Origin: Methanolobus mangrovi
GTDB lineage: Archaea > Halobacteriota > Methanosarcinia > Methanosarcinales > Methanosarcinaceae
NCBI RefSeq assembly: GCF_031312535.1
Contig: NZ_CP133594.1
Coordinates: forward strand, 1,550,001 to 1,614,000
Direction of reading: 5' to 3'
Length of the DNA: 64,000 nucleotides
Shown: positions 5,490-12,767 of the stretch, one piece after another
How positions within the stretch are numbered: the first letter of the stretch is position 1
How the letters are laid out: the number at the start of each line of letters is the position of its first letter
Notes under the pieces: model-generated
Database searches by the model: none
Told to the model about the DNA's origin: nothing
Seen by the model: the letters and a program-made list of their open reading frames with translations, nothing else
Program-made: the position numbers and the translations under genes

Positions 5490-6825
5490 GCTCCCTTAAA
5501 AAAATAGCGGCTGAGATTGTGTCCCCAAGTCCTACAGTTGATATCGGCTCGACGCAGATGCGGGTCGGAACTATAGCCACCTGATAAGACATATGCTGCC
5601 CGCATGCCGTACTGCACTTCCAGTCTTCGTCCATGTGTTTTACAAGTCTTAATGATTCTGCTTTCCCAAACTCACTTTTCGGTATCTCAGATGCTATATC
5701 CAGCAGAGTTTGCCTGTCAGAAAGCTTACCGGAGCATGCAAATGCAGCTGCACATGAAGCTCCGAAATTCATTGCTTCGATAATCATTTCAGGGTCGTCT
5801 TCTTTCCTGCAAGAAACAGAAACTACGAATTCCCTGGTATGCACAAGCATCCTGCAGAGTCCGAAATCACCACAAAGCCTTATGGCTGCTTCGACAATGG
5901 CCACAGAATCCATTGCAAGTATAGGTTTTGGATCCATACCATTTATGCTGGCAAGCATGGCAAGCTCATCTTCATTCATTCCTATACGGTCAACTATAGA
6001 AGATAGAATTGAAAATGCATATGATGCTATTTTTCCAGATGAGAAATGTCCGAATTCAACATGGATATGCAGGTTTTCCCTTACTTGTTTCCAGCTTTGG
6101 AGCTGTTCAAGAGCCATATCCAGTCTTTCTTCATAACCATATTTTCCGGAACCATCTTCCTGCAGCATATGAAAACCGGAAACAATAGCACCATCCATTT
6201 CCCCTGCATGTTTCAGGGAATAATCCCGGAAATGCTCATCAATGTAAAGCTGGAAGTTTAAGGGGTCGTAGGTTGCTATGAACCTGTTCTCTCTTGGAAC
6301 TGAAATGGTTTCACCTGAAAATCTAACAATGTCATCTTTTTTGAAATCGAATACAAAGTGAATGAGTTCCGGCCTGTTATTCCCGGCTGGCAGGATATTT
6401 CCTATTTCCCTACTGCTGTACAGCTTTCCATTATAAGGATGAAAGATTGCCTTATGAGAAAAAAAGGAAGCTTGTAGCTTTGAGAGACTTGCAACATTAG
6501 GCACCACCTTTGAAGCGCCAAGTTCAGAGAGAACATTGGCCATTATACCCATGTTACCACCCATCCTCATCAGGGAATCGTTGAAGAACGTCAGTCTTAG
6601 CCATTCAAAAACTTCTGCATCATGGATCAGCCATTCAGCACCGGTACCATCACGCATACATAAAAGCAAGCCTGCAAAAAAGTCTGATTTAGAGGATATG
6701 GAACCTGGAGGATTTTCCAATTTTGCCTGAATATCCGTATTCCCTCCGAGCATTCGGGAAAGTTCCTCACAATCAATGTGGACTATGGAATCTATATTTG
6801 CATTGTAGGCACAGAGGATATTCAT
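5473..6825 (-). CDS. ADP-dependent sugar kinase (phosphofructokinase/glucokinase family), paralogue A
   Basis: Member of the archaeal ADP-dependent glucokinase/phosphofructokinase family, which uses ADP rather than ATP as phosphoryl donor in the modified Embden-Meyerhof pathway. The 450-residue protein begins MNILCAYNANIDSI and ends shortly after TVGLGDTISAA, whose GD aspartate (about Asp435) is the family's catalytic base. I chose ATG 6825 because AAAGGAG lies 8 nt upstream; a longer frame would overlap the preceding gene. It is 4 nt downstream of paralogue B and more divergent than it, with a very short tail after the GD motif. Substrate (glucose or fructose-6-phosphate) cannot be told from sequence alone. 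Confidence 0.88.
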   Translation of the reverse strand: MNILCAYNANIDSIVHIDCEELSRMLGGNTDIQAKLENPPGSISSKSDFFAGLLLCMRDGTGAEWLIHDAEVFEWLRLTFFNDSLMRMGGNMGIMANVLSELGASKVVPNVASLSKLQASFFSHKAIFHPYNGKLYSSREIGNILPAGNNRPELIHFVFDFKKDDIVRFSGETISVPRENRFIATYDPLNFQLYIDEHFRDYSLKHAGEMDGAIVSGFHMLQEDGSGKYGYEERLDMALEQLQSWKQVRENLHIHVEFGHFSSGKIASYAFSILSSIVDRIGMNEDELAMLASINGMDPKPILAMDSVAIVEAAIRLCGDFGLCRMLVHTREFVVSVSCRKEDDPEMIIEAMNFGASCAAAFACSGKLSDRQTLLDIASEIPKSEFGKAESLRLVKHMDEDWKCSTACGQHMSYQVAIVPTRICVEPISTVGLGDTISAAIFLRELELNF

Positions 6826-6829
6826 CCGG

Positions 6830-8317
6830 CTACTCCTTTTCCTGACATATATTGAATTTTGGCATTTTGGCAAGCAGGGCAATAAAAGCACCTGCAGATA
6901 TGGCATCACCGATGCCCACGGTTGCAACAGGGTCCTTTACGATTTTGGAAGGAATGATTATAAGATCGTGGCCATCTGCACTTATGCAGCCATCTTCGAA
7001 ATCCTCGGCAGTACAGATGCCTCTTCTCACAAGATATTTTTCAAGTTCTATAAGGTCATCATGCCCCTGACCGTAAACAGGCACTTCCAGACCCGCGGAA
7101 ATATCATCAAGACTTCTTACAGAACCAAGTGTTGCCTGTGTTGCTGCAAGTGCTGAAGCAAAAAGCAATGCCTGCCTGTGAGAATCTGCATCAAGAGGAT
7201 GATCCTTTGATACCACACAGATATAGTACCCCAGTGAGTGAATGTGCACCCTCTGCAATTCAAGTTCTTTGAGAAGCCTGACTGCGCCTTCATAGAGAGA
7301 AACAATGCTGTTCTCACCTTTATTGATAACAGAGTATGCCAGTTCCTCATATCCAAGTACGTTGAGGGCGTTTGCAACTTCAACTGTATCAAGACCAAGT
7401 GAAGTTACGTGCTTTTTCACGATATCGGTAAGCAGGGCTTTACGGATGACCTTGTTCTGTATGGATGTGAATTCCACATGTATGCGCATTTTAGGATTAC
7501 AGCCTTTCAGGCGTTCTATAACATTGACAGCCCTTGCGACATAATCAAGATAGGTAGTACCATCCTCATATTCTTCCCTGATCATCTGGTATCCGGAAAG
7601 TATCGCACCGTCTATATCTTCCCTGATGTCTGAGAGCTGCTCATACATTTCAGGACTCATGTCTATCCGTATCCATTGGGGCCTGGAGGATATTATCAGG
7701 CGGTTGTCCCTTGGAACTGCGTATTCCTCGCCTGCACACTTGAATTTAATGCCTTTGGAGAATTCGATTATCCAGTTGATCTTTGGTTTTTGTTCAGGGT
7801 TATATGCTTCCTTTGGATGCTTCAGAATAAGTTTCCCATCCTCTATAACAGGGTGCAACAAGCTGGAAGAATCTACAAAATACTCTGCCTGCTCTCTTGA
7901 AAGCCATGGAACATAGGTGATGACATTCTTCACACCAAGGTTTGCCAGAAGATTGGATATGATACCTGCCTGTCCGCCCATACGTGCGGAGTCGAAAACA
8001 AGGTTGTCCATTAACCATTCATGAATGTCAGTAGTATAAGTTGGAACTTCAGCGGCCTTCCCATCCCGCATGGCTATGATGAGACGAGCCATGAAATCTA
8101 CAGGGTCCCTGATCTCCCTTGGATACTCCACTATCCTTTCATGTATCTTTTCGCATCCAATAATTCCAATGAGTTTTTTTATCTCCGCTTCTTTGATATG
8201 TTTCATGGCATCAACATTACTGTTATAAGCCACGAATACACCCCGTACATTTTCAAGCTGCCCCTTTACATTAGAGACTGCTTCTGAATACCGTTTTTCC
8301 CAATCAGCAATGTCCAT
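6830..8317 (-). CDS. ADP-dependent phosphofructokinase/glucokinase, paralogue B
   Basis: First gene of the kinase operon, 495 residues, normal length for the family. Visible features are the N-terminal sugar-binding strand VFVAYNSNVDAMKHI, the MGGQAGI motif (about 114-120) and the C-terminal PVATVGIGDAISAGAF with catalytic Asp near 471. The ATG at 8317 is preceded by GGGTGA at a good distance; the in-frame TTG at 8329 overlaps that site. In Methanosarcinales such enzymes are known as ADP-PFK with variable glucokinase activity; which activity applies here is inference. It is followed by paralogue A after 4 nt. Confidence 0.92.
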   Translation of the reverse strand: MDIADWEKRYSEAVSNVKGQLENVRGVFVAYNSNVDAMKHIKEAEIKKLIGIIGCEKIHERIVEYPREIRDPVDFMARLIIAMRDGKAAEVPTYTTDIHEWLMDNLVFDSARMGGQAGIISNLLANLGVKNVITYVPWLSREQAEYFVDSSSLLHPVIEDGKLILKHPKEAYNPEQKPKINWIIEFSKGIKFKCAGEEYAVPRDNRLIISSRPQWIRIDMSPEMYEQLSDIREDIDGAILSGYQMIREEYEDGTTYLDYVARAVNVIERLKGCNPKMRIHVEFTSIQNKVIRKALLTDIVKKHVTSLGLDTVEVANALNVLGYEELAYSVINKGENSIVSLYEGAVRLLKELELQRVHIHSLGYYICVVSKDHPLDADSHRQALLFASALAATQATLGSVRSLDDISAGLEVPVYGQGHDDLIELEKYLVRRGICTAEDFEDGCISADGHDLIIIPSKIVKDPVATVGIGDAISAGAFIALLAKMPKFNICQEKE

Positions 8318-8352
8318 TGTTTCACCCAATGGATGTAAATTATGTTTAGAGA

Positions 8353-8366
8353 GTATTTATATACGA
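8353..8366 (-). promoter_or_regulatory. TATA box of the ADP-kinase operon
   Basis: On the minus strand the sequence reads CGTATATAAATAC, a near-consensus archaeal TATA element. Its distance predicts transcription start about 15-20 nt before the ATG at 8317, so the leader would just contain the GGGTGA ribosome binding site. Confidence 0.6.
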
Positions 8367-8392
8367 TGGATGAGGAGAAAAACAAAATTAAT

Positions 8393-8414
8393 CCAGCAGT
8401 AGCTGCTGGCTTTT
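8393..8414 (-). terminator. Terminator of the arginine operon
   Basis: CCAGCAG (8393-8399) and CTGCTGG (8403-8409) form a perfect 7-bp stem with a 3-nt loop. On the minus strand it is followed by ATTAATTTTGTTTTTC. It lies about 95 nt beyond the argC stop and just before the kinase TATA box, separating the two units. The plus strand also has CTTTTC after it. Confidence 0.6.
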
Positions 8415-8503
8415 CATAAGCACAATATGCCCTCAGAGAAATTGTATGTATTTCCCTGCGATCATTGTATGGAAAAAAAATTATTGAAATAACTTAGCCG
8501 GCC

Positions 8504-9445
8504 TCACAGGAGACCGGTTGTTTCATCCATGCCAAGCATGATGTTCATGTTCTGTATGGCTGCACCTGATGCACCTTTCCCGAGATTGTCCAGACGGGAG
8601 ATCACCTGTATCTGGTCCTCGTTGCCGTAAATGTAGAGGTCAAGATAGTTGGTATCATTGCTCCCCTGCACATCAAAGGCATTGTCCACCAGATCATCCG
8701 CCTCATCCGCTTTATGAACGCGGATGAAAATGGAATCCTTGTAGTATTCCTGATAAAGCTCATACAGGTCGTTCTTTGTAACGGAACTTCCCAGATCCTT
8801 AACAGACAAAGGTAATGTTGCTGCAAGTCCTCTTGGGAAATTAGAAACCACTGGCATAAGAATTGGTTTCACATTCAGGCCCGAATGGACCATAATCTCA
8901 GGCACATGCTTATGGGTCAGGCCAAGAGCATACTGCCTCGGAGCTTTGTAGGCTCTCTCTTCTGTGGTCTCATATGTTTGTATCATCTGTTTTCCGCCAC
9001 CGGTATATCCGGTGATCGAGAACAATGGAACCATTGTATCTCTGGAGATGATACCTTCCTCCACCAGCGGATAAAGAGCTACAATGGAAGCCGTGGCATG
9101 ACAGCCCGGATTGGATAACCTGCTTGCTCCAACAATCTTCTCCCTGTGTCCGGCAGAAAGTTCAGGCAATCCGTAAGCCCATGCTTCATTTATACGATTC
9201 GCAGTGGATGCATCGATGATCTTTGTATCCGGATTGGTGATCAGACCCACCGTATCCTCGACCGCTTCATCCGGCAGGCACAGGAATACCAGGTCCGCCT
9301 CGTTGAGCAGTTTTGTCCTCAATTCCCTGTTGTGACGCTCCTCATATGGAATCTCAAGGATCTCAACCTGTGGATGTTTTGCCAGGCGTTCATTTACCAG
9401 TAAGCCGGTCGTTCCGTGTTGACCATCTACGTATATCTTGTACAT
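8504..9445 (-). CDS. argC: N-acetyl-gamma-glutamyl-phosphate reductase, short (type 2) form
   Basis: Third step of arginine synthesis: NADPH-dependent reduction of N-acetylglutamyl phosphate. The 313-residue protein has the short-form signatures DGQHGTTGL at the N-terminus, SNPGCHATAS with catalytic Cys about 115, ITGYTGGGKQMI, LTHKHVPE and RLDNLGKGASGAAIQNMN near the C-terminus. These resemble the type 2 ArgC known from proteobacteria rather than the longer type 1 form usual in archaea (recalled family knowledge). ATG 9445 is preceded by GAGG; the TTG at 9457 is less likely. It follows argJ after 26 nt, so the two are in one operon. Confidence 0.93.
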   Translation of the reverse strand: MYKIYVDGQHGTTGLLVNERLAKHPQVEILEIPYEERHNRELRTKLLNEADLVFLCLPDEAVEDTVGLITNPDTKIIDASTANRINEAWAYGLPELSAGHREKIVGASRLSNPGCHATASIVALYPLVEEGIISRDTMVPLFSITGYTGGGKQMIQTYETTEERAYKAPRQYALGLTHKHVPEIMVHSGLNVKPILMPVVSNFPRGLAATLPLSVKDLGSSVTKNDLYELYQEYYKDSIFIRVHKADEADDLVDNAFDVQGSNDTNYLDLYIYGNEDQIQVISRLDNLGKGASGAAIQNMNIMLGMDETTGLL

Positions 9446-9471
9446 TATCTTCCTCAAATGATCAATAAATA

Positions 9472-10656
9472 TCAGGTTGTATACTCAGCATTGATCCTGA
9501 CATAATCGTATGTCAGGTCACAACCCCATGCAGTGGCACCCTCATGTCCCATGCCGAGATCGGTTATGATGACTACCTCATCCTGAGACATGATGGACTT
9601 TAGCTGTGACAATGCTTCCTCGTCGTTTCGGACCACTTTGCCGTCTTTTACCAGTTCCACGACCTCGGTACTGGCAGAGAAGGACAGGGATATCTTTGTC
9701 TGGTCCATGTCAGCACCTGAATATCCGGCTGCTACTACGATACGGCCCCAGTTAGGATCCTGACCGAAGATGGCGGACTTGACAAGAGGGGAGCGGACTA
9801 TCGCTTTGGCTACAAGACGGGCATCCTCTGCTGTGGCTGCACCGGTGACTTTGGATTCGATTAACTTGGTGGCACCTTCGCCGTCAATGGCTATCATCTT
9901 TGCAAGTTCGGTAAGAACCAGATCAAGACCAGCCTGTAGGTCGGAGATTTCCGGATGGATGCCGGACTGACCGGTAGCTGTTACCAGAACCATGTCGTTG
10001 GTGCTTGTGTCACCATCAACCACTATCATGTTGAAACTCTTGTCCACTGAAGCGGTAAGGCATGACTGTAACATCTCTGAAGGGACGTCTGCATCGGTGT
10101 ACACAAAGGAAAGCATGGTGCCCATATTAGGTTCTATCATACCTGAACCCTTGGCGATTCCTGCTATGCGGATGCCACAGTCCATCTCGATGGCTATCTC
10201 CTTGGGAACGGTGTCAGTGGTCATGATGGCACGTGCTGCCTTCATGCTGGCATCGGCATCCTCACCCATGGAATCCAGAGCCTCGGCAAGATGGGAAGTT
10301 ATCCATCCGGTGTCAAGTTTGCGTCCGACAACACCTGTGGAAGCAACACCTATCAGTTCCTCGTCAACTCCTAATTTTGATGCAAGCGCAGATGCCATTA
10401 TTCTTGCATCAGCAAGACCCTGCACACCTGTGAAAGCATTTGCATTGCCGCTGTTAACGATAACCCCGGCAAGCCTTCCGGTTCCGTTGATATGTTCCCT
10501 GGTAACTACCAGTGGAGCTGCAATGACCTTGTTCCTGGTATAGGCTCCGGCAGCGTTTCCTTCTGCCTGTATGACTGCAATTCCCATCTTTCCGGGTTTA
10601 ATGCCACCGGCACGCACGCCTTTTACAGCACAGATACCGCCTTCAATGAATTTCAT
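9472..10656 (-). CDS. argJ: Glutamate N-acetyltransferase / ornithine acetyltransferase
   Basis: Transfers acetyl from N-acetylornithine to glutamate, recycling the acetyl group in arginine synthesis; some family members also use acetyl-CoA. The 394 residues include MTTDTVPK (about 145-152), the self-cleavage segment EPNMGTMLSF with the Thr nucleophile at about 180, and DGDTSTNDM. The residue before the Thr is Gly here. Family members are self-cleaved into alpha and beta chains. It sits between the CBS-protein gene (11 nt upstream) and argC (26 nt downstream), consistent with one transcript. Confidence 0.95.
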   Translation of the reverse strand: MKFIEGGICAVKGVRAGGIKPGKMGIAVIQAEGNAAGAYTRNKVIAAPLVVTREHINGTGRLAGVIVNSGNANAFTGVQGLADARIMASALASKLGVDEELIGVASTGVVGRKLDTGWITSHLAEALDSMGEDADASMKAARAIMTTDTVPKEIAIEMDCGIRIAGIAKGSGMIEPNMGTMLSFVYTDADVPSEMLQSCLTASVDKSFNMIVVDGDTSTNDMVLVTATGQSGIHPEISDLQAGLDLVLTELAKMIAIDGEGATKLIESKVTGAATAEDARLVAKAIVRSPLVKSAIFGQDPNWGRIVVAAGYSGADMDQTKISLSFSASTEVVELVKDGKVVRNDEEALSQLKSIMSQDEVVIITDLGMGHEGATAWGCDLTYDYVRINAEYTT

Positions 10657-11889: not shown

Positions 11890-12139
11890 CGTTTTCTGTT
11901 CTACAGAGCAAGGTATTTTTTGAATAAATTAAACAAAAAAGAACAATACAAAAATTAAGTCGACACAGTGTGTTTTTGTATAACATTTTTGCATAATGTT
12001 TGTATCAAACAAAGTTATTGAAATAATATGACAATTATGTCCTATAGTTGTGTTTTTATTCAAATTATAATGGCATTGAAATTAATATTGACCTATTAAA
12101 TTAACAAAAGGTTATGTCATATATTATAAACTCATGGGA

Positions 12140-12265
12140 TATTGTAGGGTTTACTATATGGGAGTGGAACCTCATAAAACACCAGCTTTCGAGTTGATGT
12201 TTCAGCTTATAGCCTGATAAGGTAAGAATCTTATACCAACCAACCTTGTCTTCATCAGGCTATAA
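12140..12265 (+). ncRNA. Candidate structured RNA, copy 1
   Basis: A TATA-like CATATATTATA (12118-12128) would start transcription near 12145-12150. A G-rich box TGGGAGTGG (12159-12167) is followed after 8 nt by a hairpin, AACACCAGC (12178-12186) with GTTGATGTT (12193-12201), which pairs except for one C-A mismatch. A second perfect 12-bp stem, TTATAGCCTGAT (12207-12218) with ATCAGGCTATAA (12254-12265), follows. The first half is homologous to copy 2 at 12690. No start codon follows the G-rich box, so it is not an obvious small gene. Confidence 0.45.
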
Positions 12266-12424
12266 TTCTTATCCCTAGACGGACACTTTAACCTGCGTAG
12301 GAATATGTCTGGATTTCGTAATCTCTGTTAAAGGCATGGGTACCATACTTCTTGTATAAATGGAAATATTGTTGAATTTTTATAATAACGCTAATGCATA
12401 TATACTATAGTGATAATTAGGAGT

Positions 12425-12500
12425 TAAATCTGCGGGGGAACTATTTTCAAATAAATTACCCACTCCCACCAAACCCCACTCCCCAAATCCCCCGCACAAG
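12425..12500 (+). ncRNA. Candidate small RNA with C-rich loop
   Basis: A perfect 8-bp stem TGCGGGGG (12431-12438) / CCCCCGCA (12489-12496) closes a 50-nt loop whose second half is almost only C, A and T, with CCACTCCC occurring at 12460-12467 and 12476-12483. A TATA-like CATATATA (12397-12404) lies 25-30 nt upstream and T-rich sequence follows near 12525-12540. The loop could pair with G-rich ribosome binding sites or with the G-rich boxes of the flanking elements. Function is inference; the structure is visible. Confidence 0.45.
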
Positions 12501-12689
12501 ATTATAATTTTAATATTGGTATTCTTTTCTGTAAATTTTTGTGTGACTTATATAAGTACAAATCAAATAATATTAGCTATTGAAAATTATGCCATCGAAA
12601 TTTTTGCTGTCATTAAATATTCACTTCTATAGCCCTATTAAGAAACATTTATGTTATATGTCAAAAATTCATATATACACATAGAGTTT

Positions 12690-12767
12690 TTAATTATTGG
12701 GGTGGCATCATCTAAAACACCGGCATTAAAGCTGGTGTTCTCCTTTTCATCTAATATTTCATTAGAT
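12690..12767 (+). ncRNA. Candidate structured RNA, copy 2
   Basis: A TATA-like CATATATAC (12670-12678) would start transcription near the G-rich box TGGGGTGG (12698-12705). After 8 nt follows AAAACACCGGC and the hairpin AACACCGGC (12716-12724) / GCTGGTGTT (12731-12739), fully paired with one G-U, then CTCCTTTTC. A second small stem ATCTAAT (12749-12755) / ATTAGAT (12761-12767) follows. Order, spacing and loop length equal those of copy 1, and the stem differences preserve or improve pairing. Confidence 0.45.

Follow-up and report, generated by a model that had tools for sequence, protein, structure and literature searches.

Two homologous noncoding units, copy 1 and copy 2 of a family that we name T1, lie in the window (the whole analysed stretch of 64,000 nt of the Methanolobus mangrovi genome), and they are members of a wider group of RNAs whose G-rich and C-rich boxes are complementary. 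Judged by sequence, the T1 units would be small noncoding RNA genes with putative transcripts, and we hold with about even confidence that these RNAs act in trans and that copy 1 is an antisense or decoy partner of a conserved RNA with a C-rich loop. The hairpin of this C-loop RNA, T2 (12429-12498), is situated between the two copies and had been overlooked in the original prediction. T2 and its complementary pairing with T1, both of them predicted, constitute the main interest of the locus.

Copy 1 (12092-12208) and copy 2 (12634-12748), correctly described as about 540 bp apart, have promoter-proximal sequence, a G-rich box, an 8-nt spacer and a 3' hairpin in common. The single elements were found where they had been placed (Table 1): CCTATTAA at 12092 and 12634, then AACA and GTTAT..GTCA, the TATA-like runs, and the G-rich boxes, each followed by the spacer and AAAACACC. 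The positions of the two 9-bp hairpins stood as well, but the copy 1 stem contains a C.A mismatch, leaving 8/9 pairs. Likewise, the stem differences had been said to keep pairing; all three are one-sided between the two copies, so that two copies alone offer no true compensation, which does appear with 14 homologues.

Table 1. Features of the T1/T2 locus (window positions)
Feature	Position	Strand	Sequence and remarks
Copy 1 promoter region	12092..12131	+	CCTATTAA..AACA..GTTATGTCA; TATA-like ATATATTATAAAC at 12119-12131; putative start near 12147
Copy 1 antisense segment	12147..12167	+	GGGTTTA at 12147-12153, G-box TGGGAGTGG at 12159-12167; complement of the C-loop RNA loop
Copy 1 hairpin	12178..12201	+	AACACCAGC-TTTCGA-GTTGATGTT, one C.A mismatch
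Second hairpin T4, just after copy 1	12208..12264	+	stem TATAGCCTGAT..ATCAGGCTATA, loop with CCAACCAACC; overlooked in the original prediction
C-loop RNA T2	12396..12498	+	TATA-like box 12396-12405; stem TGCGGGGGA 12431-12439 / TCCCCCGCA 12488-12496; C-boxes 12459-12470 and 12474-12484
Cassette of copy 1, second hairpin and T2	12098..12520	+	second occurrence in own genome at about G000:175.64-176.06 kb
Copy 2 promoter region	12634..12680	+	CCTATTAAGAAACA..GTTATATGTCA; TATA-like runs at 12654-12680; putative start near 12684
Copy 2 small RNA	12684..12748	+	G-box TGGGGTGG at 12698-12705; hairpin AACACCGGC-ATTAAA-GCTGGTGTT at 12716-12739; U-rich end

Copies 1 and 2 reached a Smith-Waterman score of 40, compared with a maximum of 33 in 2000 dinucleotide shuffles. 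The fold of copy 2 surpasses that of its shuffles (z -3.3); copy 1 alone shows no such excess (z -1.2). By DNA search, copy 2 has counterparts in two relatives, G004 (83% over 102 nt, E 1e-24) and G024 (82% over 59 nt, E 4e-9), and the G004 orthologue carries TTTATATATC at the same place in the promoter region. The covariance search that had been suggested (model R1) recovered five full-length T1 loci in the own genome (G000; at 175.7, 812.2, 813.1, 1562.1 and 1562.7 kb) and showed that at least five Methanolobus species have relatives, with matches in G004, G014, G022 and G024 and weak ones in G002 and G003. R1 detected no T1 in G026, and among 53 genomes outside the genus it gave a single marginal match, under strict filters that make this absence soft; T1 was thus found only in some Methanolobus. 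Flanking genes differ between the T1 loci. Two T1 clusters, in G000 (L067 4727-6701) and G024 (L070 4929-6129), are located near a regulator-like ORF (VKKRLLDVAFASDKRK and MKAELISTVFLSEKRK, respectively), and these neighbourhoods also have the short ORF LDISIAILKIAMHGAKKTHIVY in common.

Across 14 T1 sequences the hairpin is conserved, with 93.7% of cells paired, four pairs changed on both sides and a covariation of 0.258 versus at most 0.12 for slid pairings. The G-box varies among homologues (GGGAGTGG, GGGGTGG, GGATTGG, GGGATGG) or is lost while the hairpin is kept, the latter in two relatives from G022. It had also been stated that no start codon follows the G-box; GTG in fact overlaps each box, and the 3' arm of copy 1 contains an ATG. 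None of the frames is conserved, however, since stops or indels interrupt them in several of the 14 homologues. A small mRNA or leader peptide was rejected since no conserved frame runs through T1. Hardly credible, too, is a Shine-Dalgarno mimic, with which T1 would bind the 16S rRNA 3' end or lead a very short ORF: GGGAGTGG and GGGGTGG do look like archaeal ribosome-binding sites, with GTG overlapping the box, but the broken frames speak against it, and T1 pairs with the 16S 3' end GGATCACCTCCT at -9.5 to -15 kcal/mol, versus -23 to -30 kcal/mol for copy 1 and its 175.7-kb sister with T2. We further consider it very improbable that the hairpins represent no more than terminators, or repeats arisen by chance in AT-rich intergenic DNA; although a hairpin with a U-rich stretch is terminator-like and the intergenic stretch has 29% G+C, the similarity reaches about 100 bp upstream of the hairpin, conservation includes the 5' part, and orthologues occur at unrelated loci.

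The proposal of two paralogous small RNAs therefore agrees with homologues at unrelated loci, compensatory changes in the hairpin, lack of a conserved frame, TATA-like boxes, and a U-rich stretch after most hairpins. As in trans-acting archaeal sRNAs, T1 is intergenic, has promoter-like sequence and a structured noncoding body, and is kept in relatives. The units had not been recognised as any known RNA, and a scan of the window with Rfam 15 (gathering score or E <= 1) returned no match; C/D boxes were not evident in copy 2.

T2 has a G-poor loop of about 45 nt with two C-rich boxes (CCCACTCCCACC and CCCCACTCCCC); the corresponding match of its model, R2, is G000:1562429-1562498. In 44 distinct sequences 83% of cells are paired, double changes occur in 10/11 pairs, and covariation is 0.575 versus at most 0.09 for slid pairings; fitting the alignment to the model favours the structure, but the stem changes can be seen in the raw sequences as well. 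Stems are rewritten (TGCGGGGG, GTGAGCGGG, GCACGGGTGG, GAGGCATGTGG, GGGCAGG) while ACTAACCCCCACTCCCC-like boxes are kept in the loop; at one locus (L224, G007:C1:1702100-1703400) the loop has three C-boxes instead of two, so that box number varies. R2 matched 64 of 80 relatives, G026 among the genomes with T2, and 106 of 238 genomes of the class (E <= 0.001), including 27/27 Methanolobus and also genomes fitting Methanosarcina. Clean hairpins, mostly with TATA-like boxes, occur in several families of the order, and a scan of genome contigs named Methanolobus, Methanomethylovorans and Methanococcoides. Six T2 loci compared with Rfam 15 (gathering score or E <= 1) gave only an unrelated HEARO RNA (RF02033), which lies near a T2 gene of G036 (L216 70-309, minus strand). 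T2 is, in consequence, a structured RNA that recurs across the order without an Rfam entry.

Since T2 exists in many genomes without detectable T1, it must have another main function. A role as anti-Shine-Dalgarno RNA found no convincing support: pairing with the canonical Shine-Dalgarno sequence is weak (-7.4 to -8 kcal/mol) and ACDS sites are unconvincing, T2 reaching about -5 to -18 kcal/mol with the ribosome-binding sites of ACDS genes in no consistent pattern. A search for mRNAs with a T2 complement gave matches that were not clearly above control or were accounted for by T2 antisense. T1 is narrowly and T2 widely distributed, which speaks for T1 being the younger antagonist.

Two blocks of copy 1 (GGGTTTACTATATGGGAGTGG), GGGTTTA-N5-TGGGAGTGG, match the reverse complement of the T2 loop, and two blocks of the 175.7-kb unit (GGGGTTACCATGCGGGAGTGG) are likewise complementary to T2 loops. 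With the four T2s of its own genome, copy 1 pairs at -24.9 (T2w), -23.3 (176 kb), -24.0 (T2A) and -27.9 kcal/mol (T2B). Dinucleotide shuffling of copy 1 gave p 0.005-0.015 for all four; when copy 1 was kept fixed and the partner shuffled, p was 0.015 (T2w), 0.020 (176 kb), 0.109 (T2A) and 0.005 (T2B), so that pairing with T2A does not clearly exceed what composition would give. The 175.7-kb unit pairs at -26.4 to -30.3 kcal/mol (p <= 0.010 whichever partner is shuffled). Both units thus have the complementarity of a sponge or anti-sRNA, more weakly so for copy 1 with T2A; being recent paralogues, they amount to about one independent observation. Genome-wide, the pattern GGGNTTN{3,14}GGGAGTGG, drawn up with both sequences in view, matched only copy 1, the 175.7-kb unit and the antisense of all four T2s, with none for the reversed control, and the complement is present in at most 0.23% of shuffled T2 loops. 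The longest exact complement between T1 and C-box RNAs was not significant against dinucleotide shuffles (p 0.17), and we therefore rely only on the energy test and the two-block match. Extension of pairing beyond the G-box alone was marginal for copy 1 (best p 0.054, T2B) and had p 0.002-0.042 for the 175.7-kb sister with the four T2s.

The remaining units behave differently. Copy 2 pairs with T2 and with T3, a C-box plus hairpin RNA, no better than shuffles (p 0.09-0.65), which gives it no sponge-like complementarity to them, and its match to other C-box RNAs is just 7 bp and not significant. Nor is pairing of the 812.2-kb unit with T2 or T3 above shuffles, and the 813.1-kb unit reaches p 0.055 at best, with T3a. 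In G004 and G024, copy 2 relatives have a 10-base match to the T3 C-box (GTACCACCCC; p 0.003 against simple base shuffles only). Because the two G022 relatives lost their G-box, pairing with T2 does not hold for the whole T1 family. These results bear on an alternative that we judge unlikely, namely that T1 RNAs are ordinary trans-acting sRNAs with a variable 5' seed for mRNAs, the T2 match being a by-product of G-rich seeds and C-rich loops. It would account for G-boxes that vary or vanish over a kept hairpin and for the chance-level pairing of copy 2 with C-box RNAs, but not for the two-block pairing of copy 1 and the 175.7-kb unit with T2 beyond composition, nor for the adjacency of T1 and T2 in three genomes.

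Such adjacency, with T2 within about 220 bp of T1 on the same strand (model coordinates), was observed at six T1 loci: copy 1, copy 2 and 175.7 kb in the own genome, 579 kb and 1202.9 kb in G004, and contig C14 of G022. G014 has a degenerate C-rich hairpin similarly placed near T1. A shared strand, a gap of 122-125 nt from T2 to the following T1 in G004 (two loci) and G022, and one of 187 nt from T2 to copy 2 would suit a single longer transcript containing both RNAs, or pairing in cis between the T1 G-box and the T2 C-loop of one molecule. We regard this as quite improbable, as each unit has its own TATA-like box, T2 stands alone in most genomes, T1 precedes T2 in the duplicated cassette, and the G022 arrangement is kept despite the lost G-box.

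Other RNA-like elements surround these genes. T4 belongs to a covarying Methanolobus hairpin family with CCAACC-type loops, its stem being 95.2% paired with double changes in seven pairs (42 distinct rows, matches on both strands counted); clusters of T4-type hairpins (GCCTGATAAG..CTTATCAGGC) with CCAACC or TAACCC loops were seen at G001:C1:850063-850424, G019:C1:3100085-3100435 and G006:C2:3202944-3203295. An intergenic island in the own genome (L066, G000:805000-820000, at 6800-9100) holds two T1-like and two T3 units, the latter consisting of a C-box (GTACCACCCCCAA-CCCCCACAC) followed by a ATCGGTGTTC hairpin and occurring in other Methanolobus too, together with units having G-rich loops (GTGGGGGTTG, GGGGGTTAGG). 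Next in L066, at 9304-10156, an AT-rich stretch of about 850 bp without a long ORF, 67-78% identical in many Methanolobus genomes and upstream of an MFS transporter-like ORF, is possibly a long noncoding RNA or leader. A palindromic box, AACANTGTT, was noted upstream of several units (L040 1708-1718, L049 1599-1609, L006 2170 and 2661, L012 1561) and dropped, given that it is not enriched genome-wide and lies mostly elsewhere.

For the preferred reading, with copy 1 as antisense or decoy partner of T2, we infer transcription of T1 and T2, their RNA ends, pairing in the cell, the direction of regulation and the target of copy 2. Each T1 RNA would be about 65 nt or longer, with a mostly unpaired 5' part bearing the G-box and then the 9-bp hairpin; transcription of copy 2 probably ends in the U-rich stretch after the hairpin, and the copy 1 transcript probably continues through the second hairpin. 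The T2 hairpin would keep its G-poor, C-rich loop open, and both G-blocks of copy 1 and its 175.7-kb sister would pair in trans with both C-blocks of T2 loops; the T2 encoded alongside may be a partner too. Acting as an antisense decoy, T1 may titrate or destabilise the C-loop RNA, and copy 2 probably acts alike on other C-box RNAs (T3, GTACCACCCCC). More tentatively, Methanosarcinales and near relatives might share an undescribed T2 family presenting a G-poor, C-rich loop, to which some Methanolobus added an adjacent G-box antagonist, T1. The resulting archaeal sRNA/anti-sRNA network would extend to other loop classes, namely CCAACC-loop hairpins and C-box plus hairpin RNAs.

The pair yields a concrete prediction, two complementary blocks that can be mutated on either side (GGGAGTGG / CCACTCCC). 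T2, which lacks an Rfam entry, is conserved also in genomes fitting Methanosarcina, and since genetic tools exist for this genus the function of T2 is directly testable. If transcripts confirm the antisense decoy, T1 and T2 would represent a new kind of archaeal RNA pair. To our knowledge, few archaeal small RNAs have known targets, and antagonism of one small RNA by another RNA is not known in archaea.

Our literature searches, which covered the main text of openly readable articles, returned no description of T1 or T2 RNAs, and a search for archaeal sponge RNAs returned bacterial systems only; the sponge RNAs known to us are likewise bacterial. As in bacterial anti-sRNAs and sponges, one small RNA would titrate another by base-pairing, whereas here the partner loop is C-rich and encoded by a separate gene beside the antagonist. 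Alphaproteobacterial "cuckoo" RNAs are short hairpins with C-rich CCUCCUCCC loops, often repeated in the genome; they resemble T2 as C-rich-loop hairpins, but belong to another domain of life and have another loop sequence, and we claim no homology. Closer in phylogeny, Methanolobus psychrophilus R15 was reported to have 195 intergenic sRNAs, including nine conserved ones that are induced by cold and have an upstream box in common (PMC5378194); these cold-induced sRNAs, compared here by description, come from the same genus as T1 and T2. In Methanosarcina mazei, sRNA41 and sRNA154 are trans-acting intergenic sRNAs, of which sRNA41 and loop 2 of sRNA154 were reported to mask ribosome-binding sites, the ACDS operon being the reported sRNA41 target (PMC5867862). 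T1 and T2 are similarly small, intergenic and from the same order, and a C-rich loop could mask ribosome-binding sites as well. In contrast to sRNA41, compared by description, most ACDS ribosome-binding sites are not notably complementary to T2, and, unlike both M. mazei RNAs, T1 was found only in some Methanolobus.
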